Of a stretch of 28,635 nucleotides of DNA, positions 3,808 through 27,800 are shown piece after piece. The DNA is from a virus: IMG/VR virus record IMGVR_UViG_3300035698_015761, positions 1-28,635 of that record. One strand, written 5' to 3'. Numbering within the stretch: position 1 is the stretch's first letter; every line of letters starts with the position of its first letter. Under the pieces are notes generated by a model. That model was not told where the DNA came from, did no database searches, and worked only from the letters and a program-made list of their open reading frames with translations. Made by a program: the position numbers and the translations under genes.

Positions 3808-4314
3808 ATGGCTGAAAGAACTGAAAATCCAAGAAGGATTCCAGCACCAAGTGTAACTTTTGACCAGCAGGTTAGTCAAGGTGTTATACCCGATATGCAG
3901 GCAACTGTTCCTGGTGATCTTACTGCAGATGTAGATAAAGCTGTTATATGTATTGCTAAGAAAGCGGGTAAAGTTAGAGCTGTTTCTATTGCTTTAGCTA
4001 GTTGTGGAATAGATAATGATTCAGATCTAACTTGTGAAGTAGATGTATTTATTAACGGAGTCACTTGTTTAAGTACTCAACCTAAAATTGAGTATGTAAG
4101 TGGTGAAGTTGACGATACTTATAAAGCAACAATGATTTCTGGTGAGTTTGATGGTGTTACTATAGGTGTAGTAGATCCTGATGCTAATACTTTCTCTCGT
4201 GGGGATATTATTACATTTGATATTGATGTTGCTTTAACTGCTATACCAGCTGGGTATATGAATGGTTTAGGTGTGCTTGTAGAAGTTGATCCAATTATAC
4301 CAGAAAACGCATAA
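3808..4314 (+). CDS. Small beta-rich head protein, possible capsid accessory
   Basis: 168 residues, no membrane segment. After a charged N-terminus (1-20), the rest alternates beta-prone stretches (VRAVSIALASCG, CEVDVFINGVTCL, GDIITFDIDVAL) in a pattern like a jelly-roll or immunoglobulin-like sandwich. Its place just after the capsid gene, with a strong AAAGGAGG ribosome binding site, indicates an abundant structural component such as a second decoration or capsid-stabilising protein. I do not recognise a named family. The role is inferred from position and composition. Confidence 0.6.
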   Translation: MAERTENPRRIPAPSVTFDQQVSQGVIPDMQATVPGDLTADVDKAVICIAKKAGKVRAVSIALASCGIDNDSDLTCEVDVFINGVTCLSTQPKIEYVSGEVDDTYKATMISGEFDGVTIGVVDPDANTFSRGDIITFDIDVALTAIPAGYMNGLGVLVEVDPIIPENA

Positions 4315-4646: not shown

Positions 4647-5108
4647 ATGGCTTTAACTAAGATTGAACTTGTTGCATTAATAACGTCGGAAGTTAAGTCT
4701 TTGGCTAACTATCTCGACTCGGACGATTACGATCATGCATGTGACGATGCGAGTCGAGATACTGGCTGGTCTTTTCCTACTACAAGTAGTTTTCAAGATT
4801 TGTGGATTAAGGAAAGAGCAAAAAGGTACATTTTTTCATACATGCTAGCCGAGTCAGCACATAAGTTTAAGATCAAACAGATAAACTTGCAACATCGTTG
4901 GGAACATTATAAAGCAACAATACAGGATATGGATAAGGCTTGGTACTTTGCTAAGACGGAACATCCTGAGGAGTTTCTTAATGGACTCAACCCTGCACAT
5001 TTGTTTGGTACTAAAATTGATGCTGGATTTTCAACAGACTCTGTAGGACAGGATACTACCTACTTAGACACTAATGAAGTAGATTTCACACCTAAAGCGA
5101 GCGATTAA
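4647..5108 (+). CDS. Head-tail connector (adaptor) candidate
   Basis: 153 residues, mainly helical. An N-terminal helix (KIELVALITSEVKSLANYL) precedes an Asp-rich turn, then GWSFPTTSSFQDLWIKERA and a long helix (YIFSYMLAESAHKFKIKQIN) lead to a helix with EHYKATIQDMDKAW. Small helical proteins of this length directly after the capsid block are typically the ring that docks under the portal (adaptor, gp6- or gpW-type). It ends in TAATG, shared with the next gene, so translation is coupled. The role rests on position, size and fold appearance. A 12-bp inverted repeat lies within the 5' part of the gene. Confidence 0.55.
   Translation: MALTKIELVALITSEVKSLANYLDSDDYDHACDDASRDTGWSFPTTSSFQDLWIKERAKRYIFSYMLAESAHKFKIKQINLQHRWEHYKATIQDMDKAWYFAKTEHPEEFLNGLNPAHLFGTKIDAGFSTDSVGQDTTYLDTNEVDFTPKASD
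4710..4761 (+). repeat. Perfect 12-bp inverted repeat with 28-base loop
   Basis: TATCTCGACTCG (4710-4721) is the exact reverse complement of CGAGTCGAGATA (4750-4761). The loop contains the palindrome CATGCATG (4734-4741) and is bordered by a direct repeat GACGAT (4722-4727 and 4743-4748). It lies inside the connector gene, where it encodes an Asp-rich stretch. The G+C-rich arms stand out from the AT-rich surroundings. Confidence 0.7.
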
Positions 5109-5719
5109 TGACAGTTGGATTTGATGTTAAAGATGCTTATGAGGAAACAGCTACTAGGGCAAGATTAATTTTGCCTACTGGTGAAGCTGAGTATATTGAC
5201 TTTGAACCTAATTCGCAGGTAACAAAGCCTTTTATACAGGAGTTTTTCTTAGAAGCTTCTCTACCCTATGATACTGCTCAAGTAGTGGGTGGGATTGTTA
5301 GCTTAGATGTTGTTGGTCATAAATATATTGTAATGAATAAAATGGCTAATGTTTTTGAGAATGAAGTCTATGAAGTTCAAAGTGTTTATTATAAGTGTAA
5401 TGTATCAGGGGAGTTATTAAGACCTTCCGGAGAAAGCAGAGATCCTATCACATATGAATACCGAGAAAATTTTAATGTCATAGAAGAAAATGTTTATGCA
5501 TTACAAACGGAACCTTTGTTTGGTTCAGATACAGAAATAGAAGACCAGTTGGGAGTAATGGCAATTAATAAAGACGAGCTTTATATCCCTAGTAGTTATG
5601 GGGTTAAAGAACTCGACAGGTATCAGCCTCTGTCAGGGGAATATTACATGGTCAAGAAAGTACTTAGAAGGAGATTTGCAGGCGTAGATGTAGTAGAGTT
5701 AATAGAAGATAATCGTTAG
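5108..5719 (+). CDS. Head closure / neck protein candidate
   Basis: 203 residues, largely beta-prone. It starts at the ATG of a TAATG junction with the connector gene, indicating coupled translation. The C-terminal half contains YMVKKVLRRRFAGVDVVELIE, a compact strand-rich ending common in head-tail stopper proteins. In siphoviruses this slot, between adaptor and tail completion protein, holds the stopper (gpFII/gp16-like). I recognise no named family with certainty. It is the last gene of the head block before the glycosyltransferase cassette, and one copy of the GGTATCAGCCTC motif lies near its 3' end (5619-5630). Confidence 0.5.
   Translation: MTVGFDVKDAYEETATRARLILPTGEAEYIDFEPNSQVTKPFIQEFFLEASLPYDTAQVVGGIVSLDVVGHKYIVMNKMANVFENEVYEVQSVYYKCNVSGELLRPSGESRDPITYEYRENFNVIEENVYALQTEPLFGSDTEIEDQLGVMAINKDELYIPSSYGVKELDRYQPLSGEYYMVKKVLRRRFAGVDVVELIEDNR
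5619..5630 (+). repeat. GGTATCAGCCTC motif, copy 1
   Basis: Exact 12-base match to copies at 8847 and 14655. Here it lies inside the 5-base inverted repeat GACAG...CTGTC, near the 3' end of the last head gene and about 110 bases before the cassette. Role unknown. Confidence 0.6.
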
Positions 5720-5741: not shown

Positions 5742-7877
5742 ATGAATAACAAAGTCTTATTAGTAGGAGATCATCCTTCTTCCACATCTGGAAATTCAGG
5801 TATGATGAATGAAATCTTGCGTCAAATTGAAGTAGAGGGTAAATATGAAGCATCTGTATTTGCTTTAAAGAGTGCTGGGTATAATTCCGCACAAGATGTA
5901 AATAAGAAGTACCCTTATACTATTATTGAGGGCTCTTCTGAAAAAGACAGAATAGGTAAAAAGAAATTATTAGATATATTACAAGTAACAGAAGCTAAAA
6001 ACATTATATTTGTAGGTCTAGATATTTGGGCTTATGTAGAAATTTTTAAACAGATACAGCAAATAAGAGTTCAACGTGGATTGGTACTAAGTACTATATT
6101 CCCCTTCGATATAAGAGAAGTTAGAAAAGACTGGGTTACTTGGATGAATTTTTTCGATTATCCTTGTGTATATTCCCAGTATGGTTATGACTCGCTTAAA
6201 GAACATGTTCCTAATTTAAGTTATTTTAGGCCTTCCTTGAAACAAAATAACATATGGGAGTCTTACTCAGATGAAAAAAAGTTAGCTACCAAGAAAAGAT
6301 TTTTCCCTGGTCTTGTTAAAGATGAACTTGTATTTGGATTTGTAGGCGTCAATCAAATGAGAAAAGACCCTCAGAAATTAATCAAAGCATATCCTTTAGT
6401 GAAGAAGGAATTGCCTAATTCCTGTATATATTTTCATTGTAATCTTAAACAAGGAGTTTATAATTTACAGCAGTATGTTGTTGATTGTGGGTATAAAAAA
6501 GGTTGGATGAGAAATAATGGTGGTAGTAGGCCATTTACAGATAAAGAAATGGTGGACATGTATAATTCTTTAGATGTATTAGTTAATTGTAGTATACAGG
6601 AAGGTCTTTCATGGACACCTCTTGAAGCTATGTTGTGTGGATGTCCTGTCATTGGAACGGAAACTACTTCTCAAACGGAGCTTATAGAAAAATCTGGCGT
6701 TCTAGTTAAACAAACAGTTCCTACATATATGCCTTTAATAGGTAGAGCAGGGAATACTTGGATGGATGCCATGACTTGTACTCCTGAAGCAGTAGCAGAA
6801 GCTATGTTATATGTAGGAAAAGATGTTGGGGTAAGAAAACAAATGAGGGAAAAAGGTTTAGCAATGGGTAAGGAGTGGTTAAGTCTTGCAAGTGATGTAA
6901 ATGTATTATTAGGAGAAATGACCAAGAAAGAAAATATAGTTCTTAAGTCTCAGAAAATAGATAAAGTATTGTTTGTACAGCATAGTTCCGCTGGTGATGT
7001 ATTGATGACTACTCAATGTTTTAAAGGGTTAAAAGAAAGACATCCAGGTAAAGAGTTAGTATATATGACTCAACCTCAATATATGAGTATCATTGAAGGT
7101 AATCCTTATATAGATGAAATAATTAGTTGGAACCCAGAGGAAGCTAAAAGATATGCTCATGTATATAATCCTCATAGTGATAAAATAGCACCTGGTAATT
7201 GGGGTAGAAATGCGAATACATTGTTGGCGGATTTCTATTGGAAGTTATTGGATGTAGAACCAACAGAAATGTTTATCGATCCAATATATTCCAAGTATTT
7301 GGATAATATTTCAATAGAAGGTAAAAAAGTAGTTCTAGTTCATACTACTGGAGGATCTAAAAAACATCGAACTTATAAGTATATGGATGAAGTTTGTAGT
7401 AAGATTAGAGAAGAAAGAAAAGATTTGGTTACAATACAAATAGGAGCAGAGGATGATTGTGAGGCAAATGCTGATATAGATTTAAGAGGTAAACTCTCTT
7501 TTCGTGAAACAGCATGGATAGTTAAAAGAGCTCATTATGCAATTACGGTAGATTCTTTTGTAAGCCATTTAGTAGGAATATTTGGTATACCTCAACTTTG
7601 TTTATTTGGTACAGGTAATTCTAGTGTAGTAAGGCCTAAGCAAAAGGAAAATTTATTAATATGTCTTTCTCTAGATTATATTAGAGATTGTCCTGGATTA
7701 GGTCCATGTTCTGGTGTAGTGGATTGTCCCCATCCTTGTTGTATAGGTATACATTCACCAGAGCTAGTATATAATATTTTTAAAGAGTTAATGAATGATT
7801 CACAACAATCGATTGTAAAATTTTATTCTACAACGAAGAAAGGAATGGACTATGAAGTTACCGATAATAGTAGGTAG
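5742..7877 (+). CDS. Bifunctional glycosyltransferase: GT4-like plus GT9-like
   Basis: 711 residues, two complete enzymes in one chain. Residues about 1-395 are a GT-B glycosyltransferase of the GT4 type: a Rossmann start (VLLVGDHPSSTSGNSGMMNE), the mid-protein strand FGFVGVNQMRKDP and the donor-site signature E287-x7-E295 in QEGLSWTPLEAMLCGCPVIG. Residues about 405-695 are GT9-like (heptosyltransferase superfamily): a fresh Rossmann start (VLFVQHSSAGDVLMTTQCFK), then VLVHTTGGSKKHRTYKYMDE, and the active-site region TVDSFVSHLVGIFGIP (Asp604, His608). A Cys-rich segment (CPGLGPCSGVVDCPHPCC) follows. The start has AAGGAGA upstream. It opens the cassette and overlaps the next gene by 26 bases. 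Donor and acceptor cannot be read from the sequence; transfer of two sugars in sequence is plausible. Confidence 0.88.
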   Translation: MNNKVLLVGDHPSSTSGNSGMMNEILRQIEVEGKYEASVFALKSAGYNSAQDVNKKYPYTIIEGSSEKDRIGKKKLLDILQVTEAKNIIFVGLDIWAYVEIFKQIQQIRVQRGLVLSTIFPFDIREVRKDWVTWMNFFDYPCVYSQYGYDSLKEHVPNLSYFRPSLKQNNIWESYSDEKKLATKKRFFPGLVKDELVFGFVGVNQMRKDPQKLIKAYPLVKKELPNSCIYFHCNLKQGVYNLQQYVVDCGYKKGWMRNNGGSRPFTDKEMVDMYNSLDVLVNCSIQEGLSWTPLEAMLCGCPVIGTETTSQTELIEKSGVLVKQTVPTYMPLIGRAGNTWMDAMTCTPEAVAEAMLYVGKDVGVRKQMREKGLAMGKEWLSLASDVNVLLGEMTKKENIVLKSQKIDKVLFVQHSSAGDVLMTTQCFKGLKERHPGKELVYMTQPQYMSIIEGNPYIDEIISWNPEEAKRYAHVYNPHSDKIAPGNWGRNANTLLADFYWKLLDVEPTEMFIDPIYSKYLDNISIEGKKVVLVHTTGGSKKHRTYKYMDEVCSKIREERKDLVTIQIGAEDDCEANADIDLRGKLSFRETAWIVKRAHYAITVDSFVSHLVGIFGIPQLCLFGTGNSSVVRPKQKENLLICLSLDYIRDCPGLGPCSGVVDCPHPCCIGIHSPELVYNIFKELMNDSQQSIVKFYSTTKKGMDYEVTDNSR

Positions 7878-8541
7878 TAATATGTATAACGAGAGAGATC
7901 AAGTTGAGGGATGGTTAAAGAATGTACGAGGATTCGCGGATGGTGTTTTTATTGTAGACAATGGTTCTACGGACGGAACAATAGAGTACTTTAGAAAAGA
8001 AGGTATACATGTTATTGAGAGTAATATTATTATTGAGGAAGGTTATGGACCAGCAAGAAATCATCTTCGTAAAACAGCTTTAGAACTTTATCCTAATGCA
8101 CATTGGTTATTGTTTATGGACGCGGATGAAAGAATTGATGAAGGCGATTACCATGCTATGCATTTTTTAGCAGATACTTTACAGGAGAAATATAATTGTG
8201 TGGCTTTTCCTAGAATAGATTGGCATGATTTAGAAAAAACTAAAGCTGAGAATGATTATAAAGTTTCTCCTGATTGGCAATGTAGGATGACTCGTTTGAA
8301 TAGTTCTGTAATGTATGTTAGGAGATTACATGAGCAAGTTGTGAATCATGTAATGTATGAAACTCCTCTCAATCCTGTTTTAAATCATTTTCATCGTTGT
8401 GCTTCTAAGGAGAAAAGGGATCAGGTAGGTAGAGTATGTAGTTATCTTCATAATACTGATACAGAATATGGTCATACCTATCCTAAACATCATAAAGAAG
8501 AGTTTTATGCTGAGCAACGCAAAGAGAAAGGTATTAAATGA
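7852..8541 (+). CDS. GT2 family glycosyltransferase
   Basis: 229 residues with a GT-A fold. The nucleotide-sugar site is seen in IVDNGSTDGT (34-43), and the metal-binding DxD is D90-A-D92 in LFMDADERID. MYNERDQVEGWLKNV near the N-terminus is typical of the family (the NE motif). The C-terminal part has conserved-looking RLHEQVV and LNHFHR. The start overlaps the preceding fusion gene by 26 bases and has AAAGGA seven bases upstream, so the overlap is genuine. It ends in an ATGA overlap with the radical SAM gene. No membrane segments: a soluble enzyme. Sugar specificity is unknown. Confidence 0.88.
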   Translation: MKLPIIVGSNMYNERDQVEGWLKNVRGFADGVFIVDNGSTDGTIEYFRKEGIHVIESNIIIEEGYGPARNHLRKTALELYPNAHWLLFMDADERIDEGDYHAMHFLADTLQEKYNCVAFPRIDWHDLEKTKAENDYKVSPDWQCRMTRLNSSVMYVRRLHEQVVNHVMYETPLNPVLNHFHRCASKEKRDQVGRVCSYLHNTDTEYGHTYPKHHKEEFYAEQRKEKGIK

Positions 8542-9485
8542 ATCCTATAGATAAATATACAAGTACAGGATGTAAATTAATACATCATCCAGAAGTTATT
8601 AGAAGATTACAGGGTGTTAAACGAGGAACGCCTATTTCATTACAAATAGCACCAACCAGTCGTTGTAATCTAAACTGTGAGTTTTGTAGTAATAGTAAAA
8701 GAGAAAGTCATGAAGATTTAGATTTTGATAGACTTTGTAGTTATCTGGAACAAATGAAGGGTTTAGGGGCAAAGACAGTAGAATGGACTGGAGGGGGAGA
8801 CCCCACCATGTATAAGCATATTGACGCTTCTATTAAGATAACGAAAGGTATCAGCCTCAAGCAAGGCTTGATAACTAATGGCTTAGCTATAAACACTTTA
8901 GAAAAAGACACTTTAAGAAGTTTAAGTTGGATACGCATATCTATGAACGGTCTTGATTATGGTAAGTTACCTACGTTTCCAGATAGGAAATATTTTAAAG
9001 GTACTCTTGGATTTAGTTATGTTATAAATAATAAGACTACACCAGATGTATTGAAGGAGTTAGATGAAATTGTAAAGAAAATTAAGCCTGCATATGTAAG
9101 AATAGTTCCTAATTGTTTAGCCACTAAAGAGCAACAAGTAATTAATAACAATTATTTGAGTGGTAAAGTTGAGCAGATGGGTAAACCTTATTTCTATCAG
9201 ACTAAAGTATTTAAAAAACCAGACTTTTGTTATTGGTATTTGTTTAAACCTTTTCTTCTTCATGATGGATATGTGTACCCTTGTTCTTCTGTTGTGTTAA
9301 ATGATACTGCTGATAGACAATTTCATGATAAGTACCGTGTGTGTAAAATGGAAGATGCGTATATGTCATATGAAGGTCCAATCATTGCTCACTCTGCTGA
9401 AAATTGTACTCATTGTGTATTTTGTGAGCAGAATCAATTAATTGAATCAATCCTAGAGCCAACGGGAATGGAGAGCTTTGTATGA
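8538..9485 (+). CDS. Radical SAM protein with C-terminal Cys cluster (SPASM/twitch-like)
   Basis: 315 residues. The [4Fe-4S]-SAM motif CxxxCxxC is C43-x3-C47-x2-C50 in PTSRCNLNCEFCSN, followed by a GGD-type SAM-contact motif (WTGGGDPTMYKH). The C-terminus carries additional cysteines (CYWYLFKPFLLHDGYVYPCSS, and CTHCVFC near the end) arranged like an auxiliary cluster domain. Such proteins generate a 5'-deoxyadenosyl radical to modify peptides, sugars or other small substrates. The start lies in an ATGA overlap with the GT2 gene, so the two are co-translated. One GGTATCAGCCTC motif lies inside (8847). Substrate unknown: a glycan intermediate or a virion protein are both possible. Confidence 0.9.
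   Translation: MNPIDKYTSTGCKLIHHPEVIRRLQGVKRGTPISLQIAPTSRCNLNCEFCSNSKRESHEDLDFDRLCSYLEQMKGLGAKTVEWTGGGDPTMYKHIDASIKITKGISLKQGLITNGLAINTLEKDTLRSLSWIRISMNGLDYGKLPTFPDRKYFKGTLGFSYVINNKTTPDVLKELDEIVKKIKPAYVRIVPNCLATKEQQVINNNYLSGKVEQMGKPYFYQTKVFKKPDFCYWYLFKPFLLHDGYVYPCSSVVLNDTADRQFHDKYRVCKMEDAYMSYEGPIIAHSAENCTHCVFCEQNQLIESILEPTGMESFV
8847..8858 (+). repeat. GGTATCAGCCTC motif, copy 2
   Basis: Exact copy of the 12-mer. It shares the longer AAGGTATCAGCCTCA (15 bases) with copy 3. Here it lies inside the radical SAM gene and merges into a small hairpin, TCAAGC-AAG-GCTTGA. Confidence 0.6.
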
Positions 9486-10264
9486 TAGATTTATGTGTTG
9501 TTATAAGCGGGATTAATTTAGATGTTTTAGTACCTTTGTTTTTTGAAACATTGAAAAGTAGATGTAACTTAGAACAAATAAATGTGCATGTTATTGTTAA
9601 GAGAGGTATTCCGGAAAATGTTGTGCTTGATAAAGAAGTATCTGATAATATTATGGAGTATATAACTTCCCAAAATGTTATTGTTTATGAAGTACCTTAT
9701 TTTTTAGAGAGGTATGGTTGGAGTAATAAACAAATACATTGGATGGCTGGTGATTGTGCATTAACTTTGGAATATATAATGCAAAATTGTGGTCAAAGTA
9801 AATGGCGAATTATATCTCATTTAGATGTATACTTTAAAAAAGATATTTTTGCTCATATGTCACCTTGTATGACAGAAGAAAGAGCACTTGTAGGTTTATA
9901 TAGTATGGGTATTTGTGCTATTAATAAAGAGGCTGTTGAACAAGCGTTCATTGGTTTTCAATCTATGACAGGTTTTTTTGCTGTACCTATTGGTAATGGA
10001 GGGCATAAGATTATACATGGATCGGATCCTAGATGTACTAATAAGTCAATTAGGATTGAAGGTTTTGATGTTTTAGACTTAATGGAAATGAATTTTCGTG
10101 GAAAAGCGTGGGATACTTATTTATTTAGTAGGAAAGAATTATCTGACTATTTTAACCATATGGGTCAAGGTAGTGGTTATCATCAGCATCCTTCAACGGC
10201 ACTTATTCAAAGAAATACAGTTATTGATTATTTACGGAAGTTTAATATAAAACCAATTCAATAA
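9482..10264 (+). CDS. Putative GT-A-type glycosyltransferase
   Basis: 260 residues. The N-terminus (LCVVISGINLDVLVPLFFET) and the strand VHVIVKRGIPE look like the start of a GT-A nucleotide-sugar fold. Residues about 110-118 (ISHLDVYFKKD) provide a strand ending in an acidic pair position like a degenerate DxD. Conserved-looking HGSDPRC and GSGYHQHPS segments follow. No membrane segment. It starts in an ATGA overlap with the radical SAM gene and is followed by a 13-base spacer with an AAGGGGA ribosome binding site for the methyltransferase. The glycosyltransferase assignment rests on fold appearance and on being embedded among transferases; catalytic residues are not certain. Confidence 0.55.
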   Translation: MIDLCVVISGINLDVLVPLFFETLKSRCNLEQINVHVIVKRGIPENVVLDKEVSDNIMEYITSQNVIVYEVPYFLERYGWSNKQIHWMAGDCALTLEYIMQNCGQSKWRIISHLDVYFKKDIFAHMSPCMTEERALVGLYSMGICAINKEAVEQAFIGFQSMTGFFAVPIGNGGHKIIHGSDPRCTNKSIRIEGFDVLDLMEMNFRGKAWDTYLFSRKELSDYFNHMGQGSGYHQHPSTALIQRNTVIDYLRKFNIKPIQ

Positions 10265-10277
10265 AGGGGAATTTTAA

Positions 10278-10823
10278 ATGAAAAGGTTTCAAACAATAGA
10301 TGGACCATTTGCAAATGAAGATGGAATTCAACTTCAAGAGTTAGCAAGAGGAGGAGTTGTATTAGAAATAGGTAGTTGGAAAGGTAAATCCACGGTTGCT
10401 TTAGCTGAGACAGCTATAAAAGTTTATGCTTGTGATCCGCATACTAAAATAGATAGACATGAACCTGGAGATGCTTTAGTTTCATTAGATGAATGGAAAG
10501 AAAATACCGAAGGTTATAACAATATAGTTTTATTGTTAGGAACTTCTGAAGAAATGGTTCCTTCTTTTGAGGATGGTTTCTTTGATCTTATATGGATAGA
10601 TGCATGTCATGATTATTTAGCGGTTAAACGAGATATAGAATTATCTTTATCTAAATTAAAAAAAGGTGGAATAATGGTTTTTCATGATTGGATGTGGTCA
10701 TATGACACTGATGGAGGACCTACAAAAGCCTTAGAGGAAGCGTTTAATAATGGCATTGTGTTTAAAAATAGGCGCGAGTTTCCAATGGAATTCAAAGACG
10801 GCTTAGTTTGGAAGGTAATATAA
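10278..10823 (+). CDS. Class I SAM-dependent methyltransferase
   Basis: 181 residues. Motif I is VVLEIGSWKGKST (28-40), followed by an acidic strand end (VYACDPH), then FFDLIWIDACHDYLAVKRDIE and GGIMVFHDW, the pattern of the Methyltransf_24 group of small-molecule and sugar O-methyltransferases. The Asp and His in IDACHDY and FHDW are the residues that usually bind the metal and catalyse. The stop codon overlaps the next start (TAATG). A shortened relative (12263-12631) lies downstream in the same cassette. A probable role is to methylate the sugar or the modified acceptor built by the neighbouring enzymes; this is inferred. Confidence 0.85.
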   Translation: MKRFQTIDGPFANEDGIQLQELARGGVVLEIGSWKGKSTVALAETAIKVYACDPHTKIDRHEPGDALVSLDEWKENTEGYNNIVLLLGTSEEMVPSFEDGFFDLIWIDACHDYLAVKRDIELSLSKLKKGGIMVFHDWMWSYDTDGGPTKALEEAFNNGIVFKNRREFPMEFKDGLVWKVI

Positions 10824-11644
10824 TGAATATACAATTTGAATCCACCAATCGGTGCAACTTAGCTTGTTTTGAGTGTCCCTCCACATTAATGAAACGTAAT
10901 AAACAAGATATGGAGCTAGATACTTTCAATAAATTGTTAAATGATTATATTGTTCCTTTAGAAGGTAATAGGCCTGCTATAATTTTTCATATTAATGGTG
11001 AGCCACTATTTGCTTCTAATTGGGAATATATGGTAAGAGAAGTTAGTAAAAAACGTCCTGATGCTTTTATAGACATATACACAAATGGTATTTTATTAGA
11101 CGATAAAGTAATGGATGTTCTTGTTTCTCTTCCTAGTTCTTTTAGAGTTTACGTTTCTTTTCATTTTCGTATGAAAAATAGTTCCGTTTTGGTAAATTAT
11201 AAGGATCTTCATTATGATCATATAGAGAGAAGTGTAAAGAGAAATGCTAGGAATGTGGAGTTTATTTTTGTATCCCATTTACACGATGGTATTTCAGAAG
11301 ATATTTTAGATGAATGGAAAAGTTATTGGGAACAAAAATTAAAATTATTTCCAAATAGAGTAGGTGGAGTTCATATTAACCCAAATATTAATCCTTGGGG
11401 GGAACTTATTTCAGATTCCCATTGTGTAACTTTTGCGAGCTGTTGTTATGAGAACGGGGAACATTTGTTTGTTGGAAATACAGGTAATGTTCTTCCTTGT
11501 TGTCTTGATTTAGAAGAAGAGATGATTTTAGGTAATATTATGATTGATAGTAAAGAACAAATAATGGAAAATAGAAATAAATTTTATTCTTCATTGAGTA
11601 ATAAGGAAACTTTAGGTGTAGTATGTAGGAGATGTTTAACATGA
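10823..11644 (+). CDS. Second radical SAM protein with SPASM-like C-terminus
   Basis: 273 residues from the ATG at 10823. A TTG at 10808 would add five residues, but the ATG sits in a TAATG junction with a GGAAGG ribosome binding site and is preferred. The cluster motif is C11-x3-C15-x2-C18 in STNRCNLACFECPST, and the GEP motif is HINGEPLFA. The C-terminus has CVTFASCC, NVLPCCLDLEEEMILGNIM and VCRRC, the cysteine arrangement of SPASM auxiliary clusters, which are typical of peptide- or protein-modifying radical SAM enzymes. It is not a close copy of the first radical SAM protein. It ends in an ATGA overlap with the next methyltransferase. Substrate unknown. Confidence 0.88.
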   Translation: MNIQFESTNRCNLACFECPSTLMKRNKQDMELDTFNKLLNDYIVPLEGNRPAIIFHINGEPLFASNWEYMVREVSKKRPDAFIDIYTNGILLDDKVMDVLVSLPSSFRVYVSFHFRMKNSSVLVNYKDLHYDHIERSVKRNARNVEFIFVSHLHDGISEDILDEWKSYWEQKLKLFPNRVGGVHINPNINPWGELISDSHCVTFASCCYENGEHLFVGNTGNVLPCCLDLEEEMILGNIMIDSKEQIMENRNKFYSSLSNKETLGVVCRRCLT

Positions 11645-12261
11645 ATTCAAATATTTATGATAGAGATTATTACGAAAGAGGTGTGCAAACAGGTAAGAGT
11701 TGTTACATGAATTATACTTGGATGCCTGAACTTACTATACCTATGACAATGGCAATGATAGATTACATGTATATTGAAAGAGAAGATTCTGTTTTGGATT
11801 ACGGATGTGCCAAAGGGTATGGTGTAAAAGCATTAAGGATGTTAGGTAGGGAAGGATTTGGTTATGACATTTCTGAGTATGCTGTAGAAAATGCCCCTGC
11901 AGAAATAAATAATTGGGTAACTAATGATATGGGGGTAATAAATAAATATACATTTGACCATTGTATCGCTAAAGATGTTTTTGAGCATATTTCTGTGGAT
12001 GAGTTAGAGTTATTTTTGTTTGATATTGCAGTCGATGGTAGTATGTTAGTCATTGTACCTTTAGGAGATAATGGAGTTTATAGAGTACCTGCTTATGCTT
12101 TAGATGTAACTCATATTAATGCAGAGGATGAAACTTGGTGGACAAAGTTATTTGAAAGAACAGATTGGAAGATTAAAGATTTTCAATACTTAATTCCTGG
12201 TATTAAAGATAATTGGAATAGTTATCTTAAAGGAAACGGTTTCTTTTTATTAGAAAGATAA
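11641..12261 (+). CDS. SAM-dependent methyltransferase
   Basis: 206 residues from the ATG at 11641. That start lies in an ATGA overlap and has AGGAG nine bases upstream, whereas the ATG at 11632 would have no spacing. NIYDRDYYERG near the N-terminus is frequent in sugar-cassette methyltransferases. Motif I is VLDYGCAKGYGVKAL, then GFGYDISEYAVENAP (acidic end of strand 2) and FDHCIAKDVFEHISVDEL (motif post-II). It lies between the second radical SAM gene and two small truncated-looking genes. Its substrate is not identifiable, but O- or C-methylation of the cassette product is likely. Confidence 0.85.
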   Translation: MNSNIYDRDYYERGVQTGKSCYMNYTWMPELTIPMTMAMIDYMYIEREDSVLDYGCAKGYGVKALRMLGREGFGYDISEYAVENAPAEINNWVTNDMGVINKYTFDHCIAKDVFEHISVDELELFLFDIAVDGSMLVIVPLGDNGVYRVPAYALDVTHINAEDETWWTKLFERTDWKIKDFQYLIPGIKDNWNSYLKGNGFFLLER

Positions 12262-12262
12262 T

Positions 12263-12631
12263 ATGAAAACAATAGCAAGAAAACATTATACTCAGATAGA
12301 CGGAACATTAACAGAAGATGATGCTTTGACTTTACAAGAGTATGCTAAGAAAAATAAGTGTTTAGTAATAAGTAATAACGATCAACCTGTCCTAGCAATA
12401 GCTCAAACGGCTAAAATAGTATGGGCTAAAAAGCATGAACATAGTATAGAGAATGTGGCAGGATATTCTACTATAAGTTTTTATGCTGAGCCGCATCTTT
12501 TAAAGGACGGTTATTTTGGCCTTTTATTTATAGATAAAGATATAGAAGAAGATTGTACCTTTAAAGTTAAAGAAGGTGGTATCATTTTTCACTTTGTAGA
12601 TGGAAAATTAACAAAAACAATTCAGGAGTAG
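12263..12631 (+). CDS. Miniature relative of the upstream methyltransferase, SAM site lost
   Basis: 122 residues. Aligned by eye with the methyltransferase at 10278: HYTQIDGTLTEDDALTLQEYA matches RFQTIDGPFANEDGIQLQELA; PVLAIAQTAKIVWA matches STVALAETAIKVYA; GYFGLLFIDKD matches GFFDLIWIDAC; and VKEGGIIFHF matches LKKGGIMVFHD. The glycine-rich SAM loop (EIGSWKGK in the parent) is replaced by ISNNDQ, and the segment between the two halves is much shorter. It is therefore probably not a methyltransferase; a binding or partner role, or decay, is possible. The frame is intact and starts two bases after the preceding stop, with no clear ribosome binding site, which implies translational coupling. 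Relatedness is by eye only. Confidence 0.6.
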   Translation: MKTIARKHYTQIDGTLTEDDALTLQEYAKKNKCLVISNNDQPVLAIAQTAKIVWAKKHEHSIENVAGYSTISFYAEPHLLKDGYFGLLFIDKDIEEDCTFKVKEGGIIFHFVDGKLTKTIQE

Positions 12632-12633
12632 TT

Positions 12634-13029
12634 ATGAAAAAGTTAGATGTAGAAATATTTATTGTAGATAGATTTTTGGATAAGAAGTTTACTCAAAAAG
12701 TTATAGATTCTTTTAAAGGAGAAGTGGTAAATATCACAGTTGTAGATAGTTTGTTTGAGATAAACTCCTTAGATAAAGTAGAAGATTGGTATGGTGTTTT
12801 TTATCAAGATGAAATAATATCTGATGAATTACTAGTTGCTTTGGAGTCTTTTTTTGATTTAACAAAAGCGGATGTATTAGTTGCTTTTAAAAAGGAATTA
12901 AATAGAATTACTAAATGTCCTAGATTTTTTAGAAACTATATAGAGCTGGATATGACTTGTTTATCCCCAGAAGATAAAGATGTTAAACATGAAATAATAT
13001 TGAATGGGTATATATTAGAAAATGATTAG
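12634..13029 (+). CDS. Small protein, possibly a reduced GT-A-like domain
   Basis: 131 residues. It opens with a strand (VEIFIVDRFLD) and helix (TQKVIDSFKG), then a second strand (VVNITVVDSLF), an order like the nucleotide-binding half of GT-A glycosyltransferases. VEDWYGVFYQDEIISDELL resembles the strand carrying the acidic metal site, and CPRFFRNYIELD follows. The length is about half that of a working GT2 enzyme. The start has AGGAG five bases upstream, and the gene overlaps the tail completion gene by 8 bases, tying the cassette's end to the tail operon. The assignment is tentative; it could be a small accessory protein of another fold. Confidence 0.45.
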   Translation: MKKLDVEIFIVDRFLDKKFTQKVIDSFKGEVVNITVVDSLFEINSLDKVEDWYGVFYQDEIISDELLVALESFFDLTKADVLVAFKKELNRITKCPRFFRNYIELDMTCLSPEDKDVKHEIILNGYILEND

Positions 13030-13513
13030 TGTCGTATTACAAAAAAGAGATATACAAAGATTAACTTTTGCTTTGAAGAACACTTCAAGACGATTAGCTA
13101 TTGAAGTAGATATTTTACCTAAAAGAGGTGCAGTAGAGTTTGTTAATTTATTAAAGGAAAGAATCACCACTCAAAATTTTGGGTCCGAAACATTTGATCC
13201 TCTTAATGAAAGATATGCTACTTGGAAATCTAATAAAAATAAGAAAACGGGTTTCTGGGAAATGGATGGTCATTTATTTAATAGTTTAACTGTATATAAA
13301 ACTATGGCAGGCGATTGGGTTGGGGGTGTACATCCTGCAGTTGTAGATAATAACGGTGTACCTGTTTCATACTATGCTAAAAGATTAGAAGAGGGTACAG
13401 AATATATACCTGCTAGACCTTTATTTGGTCCTGCATATCGTGATTTTAAATATCAAATATGGCCAGGTATGCTTAAACAAAGTATAAATAATATAAAAAA
13501 ACAATGGAGATAA
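13022..13513 (+). CDS. Tail completion / neck protein (HK97 gp10-like)
   Basis: 163 residues. The C-terminal signature YYAKRLEEGTEYIPARPLFG, followed by PAYRDFK, is the hallmark of the HK97 gp10 / Mu gpG-type virion morphogenesis proteins: Tyr-Ala, Glu-x-Gly-Thr, and Pro-Ala-Arg-Pro before a final helix. These proteins cap the tail and join it to the head. Residues 1-60 form a helical N-terminus (LAIEVDILPKRGAVEFVNLL). It is the first unambiguous tail gene and overlaps the last cassette gene by 8 bases with only a weak ribosome binding site, so translation is probably coupled. Confidence 0.8.
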   Translation: MISVVLQKRDIQRLTFALKNTSRRLAIEVDILPKRGAVEFVNLLKERITTQNFGSETFDPLNERYATWKSNKNKKTGFWEMDGHLFNSLTVYKTMAGDWVGGVHPAVVDNNGVPVSYYAKRLEEGTEYIPARPLFGPAYRDFKYQIWPGMLKQSINNIKKQWR

Positions 13514-21500: not shown

Positions 21501-21899
21501 ATGAAAAAATGGGAAAAGTACATAGGTATACCTTATAAGCATTTAGGAAGAGATTGGAATGGATGCGATTGTTATGGTATAGCTATGTTATATTACAAAG
21601 AGTTATTAGATATAGAGTTAAAAGATTGGTGGTATGAACCTAATTGGTCTAAGTTGGGTAAAAATCATATGTTAAATAGAGCAGAGGAGTTAAAGTTTAT
21701 AAAAGTGGAAGAACCTAGAAAACATGATTTGGTTTTAATGAAACTAGATATTACTGCAATTATTCCGAATCATTTAGCCATTGTGGTTAAAGTTCCTAAC
21801 ATAGCTATATCTGGAATGAGAGGTGGAGTTCGTGTGATGGATTTAAATTCTTCAGCAATTAAAAAAAGAATAGAAGGGTATTATAGATGCCAAAATTAA
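21501..21899 (+). CDS. NlpC/P60 tail peptidoglycan hydrolase (gpK-like)
   Basis: 132 residues. The start IGIPYKHLGRDWNGCDCYGI places the catalytic Cys at C24 (DCYG), KHDLVLMK (74-81) is the PGD-type strand, and the catalytic His is H91 in NHLAIVV. These are the key residues of the NlpC/P60 cysteine peptidase fold that cuts peptide cross-links of peptidoglycan, here used to open the cell wall during DNA entry. The JAB/Mov34 domain that precedes NlpC in lambda K is absent, as in gene transfer agent gp14. The end overlaps the start of the giant tip gene by 13 bases. Confidence 0.85.
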   Translation: MKKWEKYIGIPYKHLGRDWNGCDCYGIAMLYYKELLDIELKDWWYEPNWSKLGKNHMLNRAEELKFIKVEEPRKHDLVLMKLDITAIIPNHLAIVVKVPNIAISGMRGGVRVMDLNSSAIKKRIEGYYRCQN

Positions 21900-24800
21900 T
21901 AATTATAAAAAATCCTTTATTGCCTAATGAAATACAGACTTTCGAATCTAAAGAGAGGGAGTTTACTCCTTTCATGAATCGTTTTCTTAAAGTTAACCCA
22001 GAGTTTTGGGATATATTTGAAAAAGGTAATTTTTCTTTAAGACATAACGATACATTAATAGATGATTCTTTAAGAGCTTTGAATCTTAGATTAAAAAGCG
22101 ATGATCATTTAATATTTTATCCTAATATAGAAGAGCCTGGTAGTATAACGGCGGGTATAATTTTAGGATTAAAAGCAGCTGTTTCTTTTGGTGTTTGGGG
22201 TGGTGGTTTTGTTGCTGGAACAACCTCTGCTATAGGGTTTAGTATTGGTATGATGGTAGGAGGAACTGCTTTGAGTATGGCTATTTCTTATGGAACAAAT
22301 GCTTTGTTTGGTCCTGATTTAGCTAGTAGTAGTGGACCATCAGATGATAGTCCTTCTTTTACTTGGAATATACGTTCTACTGCTAGAGAAGGTATAGCTA
22401 TACCTGTAGTTTATGGTGAAATGTTGACAGGTGGAAATATAATATCTTCTGCTAAAGAATATGCTCCTAAGAGAGAGTGGGAATGGAGCAATTATAATGG
22501 ACAACCTCTTATTTCAGATATACCCAATTTCACTTTGCATGTTATAGGAACAGATAAACCTATAAGGGGAATAGAGTTTACAATCCAGGGTAGTGGTGAT
22601 CAATTACTTTTTTATTATAGGGTTTGGGATGAAATAGCCCAGCAAAAATTTTGGACGACTTTTTATGAGGAATATCAAAATGGAGGAGGAATTGCACTTT
22701 ATGATTTTCAAGAAGATACTGATCCAGCATATATTAATAAAACTCTTTCCAAGGGGTTGGTAAAAAATGTAGAGGCGGCCAAAGTAAAAATTAAGAGGAA
22801 AATGAGGGAAGCACAGGCTGAAACAGATTCTTCAGGTACAGTAATAGATATAACCCAAGATTATATTAACGATGTTTTGGTAGATATTCTTTCTGTAAAT
22901 AATACTTATGAAGCAGAAGATTTTATATACAGGGAAGATAACACTCTTGTAAACAGGGATAGAAGAACTTTTTTTAGTGCTTGTATTTATGCAGGTGTGT
23001 TGGCAGCTCAGGGGGATTCTTTAACTTCTACATATAAAGCACAAACAAATTGGTACAATAAGGATAGAGGGTCTCAAGATTGGACTGTTACTTTTGATTC
23101 TGGAGCAGGAAAAGTAGCAAGTTTGGGTGTATATGTTGTGGGTGGCTTTAGCATATCTCCTCCTGAAGGGTCTCGTTATTTAATGAAAAGAGATGAATGG
23201 GAACTAGTGTATGCAGATAAATTTGCTTGGATTTATGGTTTTGACTTTACGGAGGCATTTTGGTTGTGGTATATAGGTCAATCCCCATCGCCAGGTGAAA
23301 CATATAGTTTTTTCTCACACGATAATTACGAAACATTTTTTGATAAAGAAGATGAGAATTGGGTTCCTGGGCTAGGTGGTTTTGTAATCACAAGTGTTTT
23401 TGGGGCTAAATATCAAAATATTGAAGAACAGTACGGCACGATCGACGGACCCTTGTCTCAGTATGATATAATGTATGACCAATATTTACATCGTTTAATT
23501 AGTTTAGGAGAAGGCAGATGTTCAGGTATTAAACAAGTATATGTAAATGATATGATTTCTTCAGGTATGACTAATTTCTCTTATAAATTTTTTAATGGTA
23601 GAAGTGATCAGAATCTTACAGCCGGAATGTCAAATCTAGATAATTTTGAAAGTTGGAATACTTCTTCTATTTTTCATACTACAGATAAAGATTTGACAGA
23701 AAACGGAGATTATGAAGAATTTTTATCTACAAAGAATTTTGATGTTGATAATATTTTAATAGAGCTTACCACTGTTGTGTATCATGTAACCAGTAAAGGT
23801 GTAACTAAAAAAACAAAAACGAATGAGCTACTCAAGTTTGCTATATTAGTTGGTTTTGAAGATGCAGATTTTGATTCTAATTTTTCCTACACTCGTGAAC
23901 CTACGGAAGATGATTTATATGGTGGTAACTATTTATACATACCTTATGAATTAGCAGGGACTGGACATACTAATGCTGTGATAGGAGTATACCCTGCTAT
24001 ACCTATAAGAGATTTGCAATGGAAAAAGGCAAACTTAGGAGAAGTGCATGAGATTATAGCGGCTTTCCCTGCTGGTGCTTTTGGTATGTGTGCTTGGTTA
24101 AATTTAGAATTTGATGGAGAAAGATTTGATAGTGCAAGATATTCCGGGTATCTTGGTAAGGGAGATGATGATACATACAAAGAATTAGTTGATTTGGGAA
24201 TACAAGCGGAAGTCAATAACCTTATTCATACCCAAGCAAAACGTCTTAAAGTAAGAATTGTAAGATTATGTGGAAATTGGACGGAAGAAACAGATAACCA
24301 TAGACCAGGCGCCACAGATTTAAAAGTTACTGGTTTTCAAGAAGTCTCCTACAACGGTTCTAATTATCCGAGCACCGCTTTGCTAGGGATTAATTTCCAA
24401 GCCACTTCTCAATTTAGCAATTCTATTCCAAATATCACAGCCTTGTTAAAAGGTAAAATGATATGGGTTCCTAAGTTAATAACTAACCTTGTTATGGAAG
24501 CAGGTACTTACGATACAGAGGAAGAAACTATTGAAGTTACTCATGAACTTGCATGGTTTGATGAGGATATAAATCAATATAGAAGTATGTTGCATAATGG
24601 TAGACCCTGTACTTATAGTAAGGATAAAAATGGTCAATTAGAATGGGTTTTAGAATGGTCGGATAATCCTGTTTGGTGTTTATATGATTTAATATTATCT
24701 AAAACATATGGTTTAGGTAAGTTTACAAATCAGTCCAATTTACCTATAGATTGGTTTATAGATGCGGCCGAGCATTGTGATACTTTAGTTCCTGACGGAA

Positions 24801-27800
24801 TTATTCGTCGAGCAGATTCTATTTCTGTTAATGGTTTATCTGATTTAAGTACTAATTTTTATAGGAACGCAGATGCTTTTTTTAAAGATAATAATACAAA
24901 TGAATCTGGATATGACGATTATTCTAGTAATTTTGAAAGTGAGCCTGATGTTACACCTATAGAGATAGATTTTGTTAAAGTAATTTTGGGTAACTGTGTA
25001 TTCGCTAGAACAAACGATGAGGGTTGGACAAGAGCAGTAATTGGAGGCATTACTAAAAGAACTTCTTCGGAACCAGATTTGACTTTTATGAAAGGCTATG
25101 TTGGTAATGGTAATGGTAATGACTATTGGACAAATGGGTTGCCTATTTCAGACATCAATAACGAGTATTACAATTATTATCAATTAGGTGAAAAAAGGTA
25201 TACTTTAAATATAGGTGTAGATAATACAAGTAGTGCTATTGATTGGTTAAAAGTAATTTGTGATACATTTAGAGCATTTCCTATGTGGGTAGGTAGTGGT
25301 TATATGCCTGTAATAGATAAAGCCCAGATTTCTACTAAGACAATAGGTATGGGTAATATTATAAAAGATTCCTTTTCATTAGCTTATAAGCCTATATCTG
25401 AAACTCATAATTTAATAAAAGCACAATTTATTAATAGAGAAAATCGTTTTAATTTGGATACTAGACAACTTGTAGATCCTGATGTAGATGTTGTTAATGT
25501 TTTGGATGTTAAAAATACAGTTAGAGAAGTAGAAATTAAATTAACTGGTATTACCCGACCTTCCCAAATAGATAGAGAGTTAGCATATTTATTAAGTATA
25601 GGAAAAAATAATAAAAAACTTATATCCTTTGGTATGGGTATAGAACATCTTACAATGACAGCAGGTAATGTATTCTCTTTTAATCATTACGTACTAAAAG
25701 AAACTACTGTTAGCGGTAGATTATTAGGTTATGAAGCTCTTACAGATGAATATGTAATTTTAGATCAAAATGTTTCTACTTTATCTTTGCCTTTAATTTT
25801 AAGAGTTACACATATTGTGGGAGGTACAGCATGTCCTTTATGTGGTAAAGTGACAGGTGTTATTACAGATTTAGTATGTCCTGATGATGGAACTCCCTTA
25901 AATGCAGAAGAGTTTGTAGGTGAATATGAGATTACTTCTATAGAAGGTAAAAAAGTATACTCTAATTTTGGTTCTATTAAACCAGCTAAATTTAATACTT
26001 ACGAGTTAGGAGAAGCCTCATATGCTGTTCAAGATTATAGAATAATAGAAGTTTCTCCAGAAGAAAATGGAGTTGCAGGCATCACCGCTGTTAGTTACCA
26101 TAAAGAAAATCATGGTTTAGTGAGGAATACAGTTTGCGGTGGTATTACAGCTTATAATGAAGTCGGTCTTGTAAAAGTAGAGACTACGAAATCTGCTAGA
26201 AGTATTTCCTCCATAAATGTAACAATAGAAGCCGCCGATGTTCTTAATAATCAATTTACGGTTGTTATAACAGAACCTGCTAGTACTATCAATAAAACAA
26301 AAGTGTATGCAGGCTCAAACATTATAGTGCAAAATGCAGGTGGTGTTCAGGTTTCTTCTTCCTTTGTATCTGCACAAATAGGAACTCAGGGGGTAATAAT
26401 AACAGTTCCTAATATAAATGAGGAATATAATTTAGTAATAACTCCTACTTATGAAGGTGGTATTGAAGGGGATTCTATTGTTAGAACAATTAATTTAAAT
26501 TCTTTGTCTGCAAAGTTAAATAACGAAGATGCTATTTTACCTAATCCTGTAAGTAATTTTAGATTAGTTCCTAAGTGTAGACCAAGAGCAGAGTTTTCTA
26601 ATGAGGATTATAATTATTTTGTTACTGAGTATTTACATTTTATGTGGGATGGTGGATCTTTAACACCAGAAGATACAGAATTTTTAGTTAGAAATTCTTT
26701 GACTATAGCAGGATATAGATTAACAATATACTTGAGGAATAATTCTAGTGTTTGGATACTTTCTAAATCATACACATTAAGTAAATATGATATAGATAAA
26801 AAAATAGAGCTTTATAATCTTTTAGATAAAAATGGGGATGATTTAACTAACACTTCTTCAGAAGCATTAGGTAATATTAATGGGGTTAGAACAGAGATAG
26901 TTGCATTTTCAGAGTTGGGTGTTGAAAGCAATCCTATTGTAGAAGAATTTTATCCTTATGTTCCTAAACCACCAACTAAAGTTAAGGTTGTAGACTTGTT
27001 TGGTAGTGTAGACATCTCTTGGGAGAAAGAAGATGATTGGGGTAATGTTGATAAATTTGAAGTGACTTTAACAGTAACCAAAGAAATAACAATAGGGGGA
27101 GAAAGAACTATTGTTTATACTTCACCTATTCATACTACTACGGATTATAGAGAGTTAATAAAAATACCAACAGAGGAATTAACAGAATTAAATTCGATAG
27201 GCTTTTTATGGGGTTGTAGATTAGAAGCAAGAGTAAGAGCAGTTTCTAAAATAGGTACTCGTTCTTCTACTAGAGTTACTTACCCAGAAACAGAATCTTA
27301 TACTCCACCAACTGCTGAGGATTGGGTTTTAGATACGGCGTCTACTAAGACATCTCAAGTAGCGATACCGGATTATATGTTGAGTAAACCTGTCTCCCAT
27401 ATAACTGTTTATGATAAAGTAAACTCCTTACTTACAAATCTTAGTGTAGCTTCTCATAGAATAGATAATTTTTCAACTTATGAAAATAGACAAAAATTAA
27501 TAGATGGTTATTTAGGCATAGGTGTAACTTATACAGGATTAGATCTTGCTACAAGTTTGGGAGTTAGAATAACTTATGAGTCTCCTAATGAAGAAGAGTT
27601 TTCTAAAGTATCTTTTACTGTGGATAAAGAATGTTATGCACTTGTGGAGTATTTAAATCAAGATGAAGATGGTGATTATTTATATGGTGATTGGGAATAT
27701 CTTTCTGGGGATGCAGGAGCACTTGATGCCGACAATACATTAACTTATTACGACAATGTAACAGACGCTTTAACAAACATGTGGCATCTGACAAGCTCAG

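Follow-up and report, generated by a model that had tools for sequence, protein, structure and literature searches.

Temperate phages carry Gtr cassettes, glycan genes that switch a surface type; these act on the host O-antigen and need the membrane proteins GtrA and GtrB. Glycosylation of the virion itself is known from few tailed phages. In mycobacteriophages, which have their own glycosyltransferases, glycans are reported on capsid and tail-tube subunits (Freeman et al. 2023, as cited in PMC12619734 and PMC13313380). The chlorovirus PBCV-1, a eukaryotic virus with an N-glycan on its capsid protein, encodes a multi-domain enzyme with two transferase domains and methylates its glycan (A064R/A061L), and its capsid glycan variants form antigenic classes (PMC9614988). 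Hypervariable regions of pelagimyophages and cyanomyophages (PMC7029224; HTVC008M) contain cassettes of glycosyltransferase and radical SAM genes.

The locus described here, which begins with the gene c1, resembles each of these in part. Set against the mycobacteriophage systems, it occupies a fixed place at the head-tail junction with eight genes, among them a GT4-GT9 fusion and radical SAM genes, and has two exchangeable haplotypes; its phages are unrelated and uncultured. It is likened to PBCV-1 by the domain layout of c1. The pelagimyophage regions, on the other hand, belong to myoviruses, lie near tail-fibre genes and were interpreted as modifying the host O-chain (PMC7029224). The c1 cassettes also differ from Gtr cassettes in being almost without membrane proteins. 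A literature search found no account of the c1 locus, and radical SAM enzymes appear not to have been tied to virion decoration before. We consider the cassette to be, quite probably, a diversifying locus for virion glycans.

Gene order and site of the cassette

The window, meaning the whole stretch of 28,635 bases that was analysed, is an IMG/VR virus record and is read as part of the structural operon of a siphovirus. Nine plus-strand ORFs, c1 to c9, occupy 5742-13029 with overlaps or gaps of at most 22 nt (Table 1). Upstream are genes for a head protease (620), the major capsid protein (MCP; 2547; phrog_29, E 4.7e-34) and connectors; downstream, the Neck1/tail-completion gene n10 is followed by TMP and then J. 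The arrangement originally predicted, nine co-directional and mostly overlapping genes at the head-tail boundary, was borne out by these ORFs and flanking genes. The cassette is thus placed among structural genes, as a virion-glycosylation locus would be, and it would be expressed late from the structural operon. The layout is polycistronic, and between 3500 and 16500 promoter- and terminator-like sites are not in excess over shuffles. The J-like gene (21887-28633) encodes at least 2249 aa and is cut off where the record stops; a match to phrog_32 close to its beginning suggests that a tail assembly domain may be fused to it.

Table 1 Genes of the cassette and its surroundings in the window
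Gene	Position	Strand	Description	Matches
g05	3808..4314	+	Candidate carrier of the glycan; lies between MCP and g06; jelly-roll head/decoration protein by prediction	
g08	5108..5719	+	Connector gene that forms the constant left border	
c1	5742..7877	+	GT4-GT9 fusion glycosyltransferase; constant opening gene of the locus; mosaic gene whose GT9 half comes from a different lineage	PF00534 E 1e-11 (GT4); PF01075 E 1e-4 (GT9)
c2	7852..8541	+	GT2 glycosyltransferase, type A	PF13704 E 4.8e-10; phrog_13126 E 7.8e-19
c3	8538..9485	+	Radical SAM protein; haplotype A marker	PF04055 E 2e-9
c4	9482..10264	+	Putative glycosyltransferase (H-x-D motif, 4-sequence alignment); haplotype A only	
c5	10278..10823	+	Class I SAM methyltransferase (Methyltransf_24)	PF13578 E 1.5e-20
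c6	10823..11644	+	Radical SAM protein with SPASM-Twitch	Nearest solved structure BtrN
c7	11641..12261	+	Class I SAM methyltransferase, haplotype A	PF13489 E 1.4e-6; phrog_27380 E 2.2e-33
c8	12263..12631	+	Decayed methyltransferase, c5 paralogue; SAM-binding motif I lost	
c9	12634..13029	+	Truncated GT-A fold protein (predicted), 131 aa, degenerate DXD; overlaps n10	
n10	13022..13513	+	Neck1/tail-completion gene that bounds the site on the right; overlapped by c9	phrog_26 E 2.8e-5

Related loci were collected from IMG/VR by MCP (79), c1 alignment (80) and g05 alignment (34), several of them overlapping, and were grouped at 90% MCP identity into 97 clusters, 53 with c1. The c1 search, by which most c1 loci were fetched, is blind to neighbouring genes. 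Where both genes are visible, c1 directly follows g08 in 108/111 loci (searches pooled, not deduplicated); the exceptions are L133 and the pair L085 and L128, apparently a single phage. Chance occurrence is excluded because the locus recurs in about 53 distinct relatives, and the site is fixed rather than one of chance insertion because c1 adjoins g08 in all but those three loci. Empty sites exist: in many other relatives n10 comes immediately after g08, in some of them with c9 and in others without.

A pattern scan of 84,980 species genomes found the full-length c1 fusion on two contigs only. Both carry head genes of the window phage, and a host origin of c1 was rejected on these grounds. The original prediction proposed to look in related phages for this set of genes at this position, and counted unrelated placements in host-conversion loci as evidence against it; the former holds, and no host-conversion placement was seen among the relatives, the fusion in genome assemblies being confined to contigs of this phage family. 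An Alphaproteobacteria MAG and a Melioribacter MAG contain one relative each, although binning may have put them there by chance. Among GenBank phages, c1 gave only a weak GT4 match. The glycosyltransferase of Tetrasphaera phage TJE1, weakly similar to GT4 and located upstream of terminase in another context, was rejected as a c1 relative.

Could the site simply tolerate insertions, and the cassette be cargo that is selfish or neutral? Its content varies greatly, and HNH-type endonuclease-like genes occur in the cassettes of some relatives. However, c1 presence shows few changes on the capsid tree (4), its catalytic residues are near-invariant and the haplotypes are linked, so that cargo is very improbable.

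Some relatives have other features at or near the site. In L035 (5330-7519; also in L036), which lacks c1, a 729-aa Ser/Thr-rich mucin-like protein stands in place of the cassette. L081 (1-3813) has the g07-g08-cassette region, but the MCP, protease and g03 of this family were not recognised upstream, possibly indicating a different head module.

Enzymes of the cassette

Conservation in c1 was counted over 73 distinct sequences, with 69 or 61 rows per position. In the GT4 half, R207, K208 and E287 are present in 69/69 rows, and position 295 is E in 56/69 and Q in 11/69. In the GT9 half, D419 is present in 69/69, and D604 and H609 in 61/61. Both domains have their catalytic residues (R/K and E-x7-E in GT4; D, D and H in GT9), as a GT4-GT9 enzyme should.

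The CxxxCxxC cluster motif of the radical SAM superfamily is present and invariant in both c3 and c6. In c3, the motif cysteines (C43, C47, C50) and four C-terminal ones with Twitch/SPASM-like spacing (C231, C249, C290, C293) are invariant in eight homologues. The protein is 30% identical to an HTVC008M protein adjoining a methyltransferase, although that match lies near nucleotide metabolism, unlike the head-tail site of c3. The start codons of c6 and c7 are probably the ATGs at 10823 and 11641, judging by homology to L049.

BtrN oxidises an aminocyclitol and serves butirosin biosynthesis. A c6 profile matches BtrN (4m7s; also solved as 4m7t) at E 1.3e-19, with the next best structure at 2.8e-5, and the single c6 sequence does so at 8.4e-13. 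The similarity covers two stretches, the core and the C-terminal cluster (Twitch) domain, which makes c6 BtrN-like by sequence. Because BtrN, its nearest solved structure, acts on an aminocyclitol, sugar chemistry is plausible for c6, which might oxidise a sugar or cyclitol hydroxyl. Searching viral contigs and GenBank phages with the single c6 sequence gave no match.

Alternatively, the radical SAM enzymes could act on a peptide, which the glycosyltransferases then glycosylate, yielding a peptide-derived or small-molecule modification. Both c3 and c6 weakly match peptide maturase models, SkfB is among the structure matches of c3 (the closest being 5v1q, an entry named simply Radical SAM), and the fold of c9 is like that of SunS. 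Yet the maturase scores are far beneath the curated cut-offs, c6 is much nearer BtrN, a small precursor gene was not recognised beside the radical SAM genes in the window, and the other cassette content is sugar chemistry. We regard such a peptide product as improbable.

Matches of c5 include phrog_2675 (named DNA methyltransferase; E 2.5e-12), the sole match in the cassette to a DNA-modification family, although its Pfam family is the general Methyltransf_24. To our knowledge, a GT4-GT9 fusion is no known DNA-glucosylating type. Placement in the structural operon also speaks against modification of phage DNA in the manner of T4 glucosyltransferases, which is the least probable reading even though hypermodified bases are often targets of phage glycosyltransferases (PMC12619734).

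With no match in Pfam or among PDB structures, c4 was not accepted as a known glycosyltransferase. It has one hydrophobic stretch (hydrophobicity 1.97), as does c7 (1.89), and both look like strands of globular folds. Credible Pfam matches are absent from c4, c8 and c9.

The decayed c8 is similar to c5 in BLAST (E 2e-10), and its homologues directly precede c9 in L003 and L004. The AlphaFold2 model of c9 (pLDDT 93.9) resembles SunS, TarP and WrtF in Foldseek with probability 1.00 and TMq 0.6-0.72, at a best E of only 1e-3, and has a GT-A fold. An active GT-A enzyme would have an intact DXD and a full-length domain; c9 is truncated and its alignment has YQDE/YDNE where DXD is expected, this position having been placed by eye. 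It is a probable pseudo-glycosyltransferase. A Pfam match to Peptidase_M16_M, below cut-off and in 1/13 members, was dismissed. Among relatives, c9 is present in 25/26 with c1 and in 6/27 without, so it is loosely linked and was not kept as a full member of a nine-gene set.

Among the identities originally predicted, the GT4-GT9 fusion, the GT2, two radical SAM proteins and two methyltransferases agree with Pfam, whereas the glycosyltransferase assignment of c4 stays putative. The two proteins described as reduced can be specified as a decayed c5 paralogue and a GT-A fold, the latter only partly a cassette gene. The haplotype switching, the mosaic make-up of c1 and the link to g05 described below go further than that prediction.

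Two haplotypes and variable content

By their GT9 half, the c1 sequences divide deeply into type A (14 rows, the window among them; support 100) and type B (43 rows). In its GT4 half, the window c1 groups with L138 and L160 (support 98), its nearest capsid kin, whose GT9 halves are type B unlike that of the window. A GT9 tree constrained to unite these three loses 149.5 log-likelihood units, and its AU p of 0.00024 is indicative, the tested group having been picked after seeing identities. GT9-half similarities of 70, 66 and 61% to L162, L149 and L008 are an artefact, as those truncated genes span the conserved start only.

Other genes follow the GT9 type. The c2 tree separates by it without error (14 vs 29, support 100), and c3 is found in 12/14 type A but 1/38 type B loci (Fisher 5e-9). 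In complete cassettes, c7 occurs in 7/8 type A vs 0/25 type B and a B12-radical SAM gene in 0/8 vs 13/25, although the latter is present in three truncated type A loci. These linkage tests ignore relatedness.

The GT9 type changes 10 times on the MCP tree for 11 type A rows, 8 times on the GT4-half tree (shuffle mean 11.7) and once on the GT9-half tree. These counts imply that an exchangeable block moved between lineages and that the GT4 half mostly stayed. The locus exists as two alternative haplotypes: the types of GT9 and GT2 and the set of radical SAM genes travel as one, with a breakpoint inside c1, and were exchanged about ten times between capsid lineages.

Cassette content was collected as 314 genes of many families from 60 representative loci, and the genes downstream of c1 are replaced rapidly among relatives. 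B12-radical SAM, GT4, GT8, NAD epimerase, GNAT and methyltransferase genes were confirmed by Pfam, as was a truncated DegT-type (aminotransferase-like) gene; sulfotransferase and pyruvyltransferase matches are below cut-off. Nucleotide-sugar synthesis genes were not recognised in the window cassette. The HNH-type endonuclease-like genes, read from sequence within the cassettes of L150 (11740-12264) and L117 (15953-16621), could drive block exchange. A small protein-kinase-like or phosphotransferase-like ORF was noticed by eye within a type B cassette (L120, 14793-15278).

Probable target and candidate carrier of the glycan

Membrane proteins were counted with a 19-residue hydrophobicity cut of 1.9, which is passed by 2/314 cassette proteins vs 74/1031 other unlabelled ORFs. 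Membrane flippases and polymerases therefore seem essentially absent, and the pair typical of Gtr cassettes, a membrane flippase and a bactoprenol glucosyltransferase, was not found. With membrane proteins so scarce, a soluble acceptor fits better than O-antigen work of the Gtr type.

Host surface remodelling, an alternative in the original prediction, is thus disfavoured in its Gtr-type form. The LPS core is still a possible target: the cassette could remodel it, or similar host glycans, in the later stages of infection and so block superinfection or release onto debris. GT9 would then behave like a heptosyltransferase of the LPS core, at the cytoplasmic face. Heptosyltransferases make up family GT9, enzymes of both GT9 and GT4 also work on the LPS core from the cytoplasmic side, and pelagimyophage cassettes of glycosyltransferase and radical SAM genes were so interpreted by their authors (PMC7029224). 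Weighing against this are the near-lack of candidate flippases, polymerases or membrane glycosyltransferases among the 314 proteins, the constant location within the head-tail junction in nearly all relatives and the association with the head gene g05. We judge host surface remodelling unlikely, though it is the strongest competitor. Virion glycosylation, the leading hypothesis from the start, remains the best reading and gains partial support from the site and the few membrane proteins.

Both g05 and c1 are present in 42 clusters, neither in 32, c1 alone in 11 and g05 alone in none. The association (42/0 vs 11/32) has a Fisher value of 3e-14, uncorrected for relatedness. The capsid tree offers just 3-6 independent contrasts, none contrary, and the link is not significant there, so it was not taken as statistical proof. 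The g05 model is a beta sandwich (pLDDT 71.6) with weak matches to C1q/TNF/viral jelly-roll folds. Because g05 is never found without c1, it is a candidate glycan carrier; seven c1-bearing lineages are without a g05-like gene.

For virion glycosylation, we infer the following course. Expressed late, the soluble cassette enzymes would draw on host nucleotide-sugars in the cytoplasm. First, c1 would start a short glycan with GT4 and extend it with GT9 on a freshly synthesised virion protein, with g05 the likeliest acceptor and the MCP or tail proteins possible ones. Second, c2 and perhaps c4 would add further sugars. Third, c5 and c7 would methylate hydroxyls, and c3 and c6 would apply radical chemistry to ring carbons, oxidising, epimerising or otherwise reworking them. 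Both c8 and c9 would be pseudo-enzymes, c9 perhaps serving as a scaffold. Recombination within c1 would swap the two haplotypes and alter virion surface chemistry, as bacterial serotype loci do; the benefit might lie in evading recognition by the host or in the environment, in stability or in a change of receptor.

A more specific version is tentative and somewhat short of an even chance. It holds that this large siphovirus lineage has a serotype-like particle system built on an ancient GT4 anchor. Joined to the anchor would be an exchangeable block, made up of GT9, GT2 and radical SAM enzymes together with methyl-, acyl- and other transferases; recombination within one gene would switch the glycan type, and the radical SAM enzymes would make unusual sugars on a jelly-roll head protein. 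If the virion-glycan reading is right, virion glycosylation would be an ancient, site-fixed and rapidly switching trait throughout a lineage, on a par with the serotype loci of bacteria, and radical SAM enzymes would gain a place in virus surface chemistry. The locus supplies a set of putative carbohydrate enzymes and a testable carrier protein.

In four of the eleven c1-alone clusters, those of L083 (8018-8578), L135, L157 and L091, unrelated small proteins between MCP and g06 replace g05. By eye, their N-termini are GPWPS-like and recall the GPxP with which many g05 proteins begin, as if an anchor peptide were kept while the outer domain was swapped.
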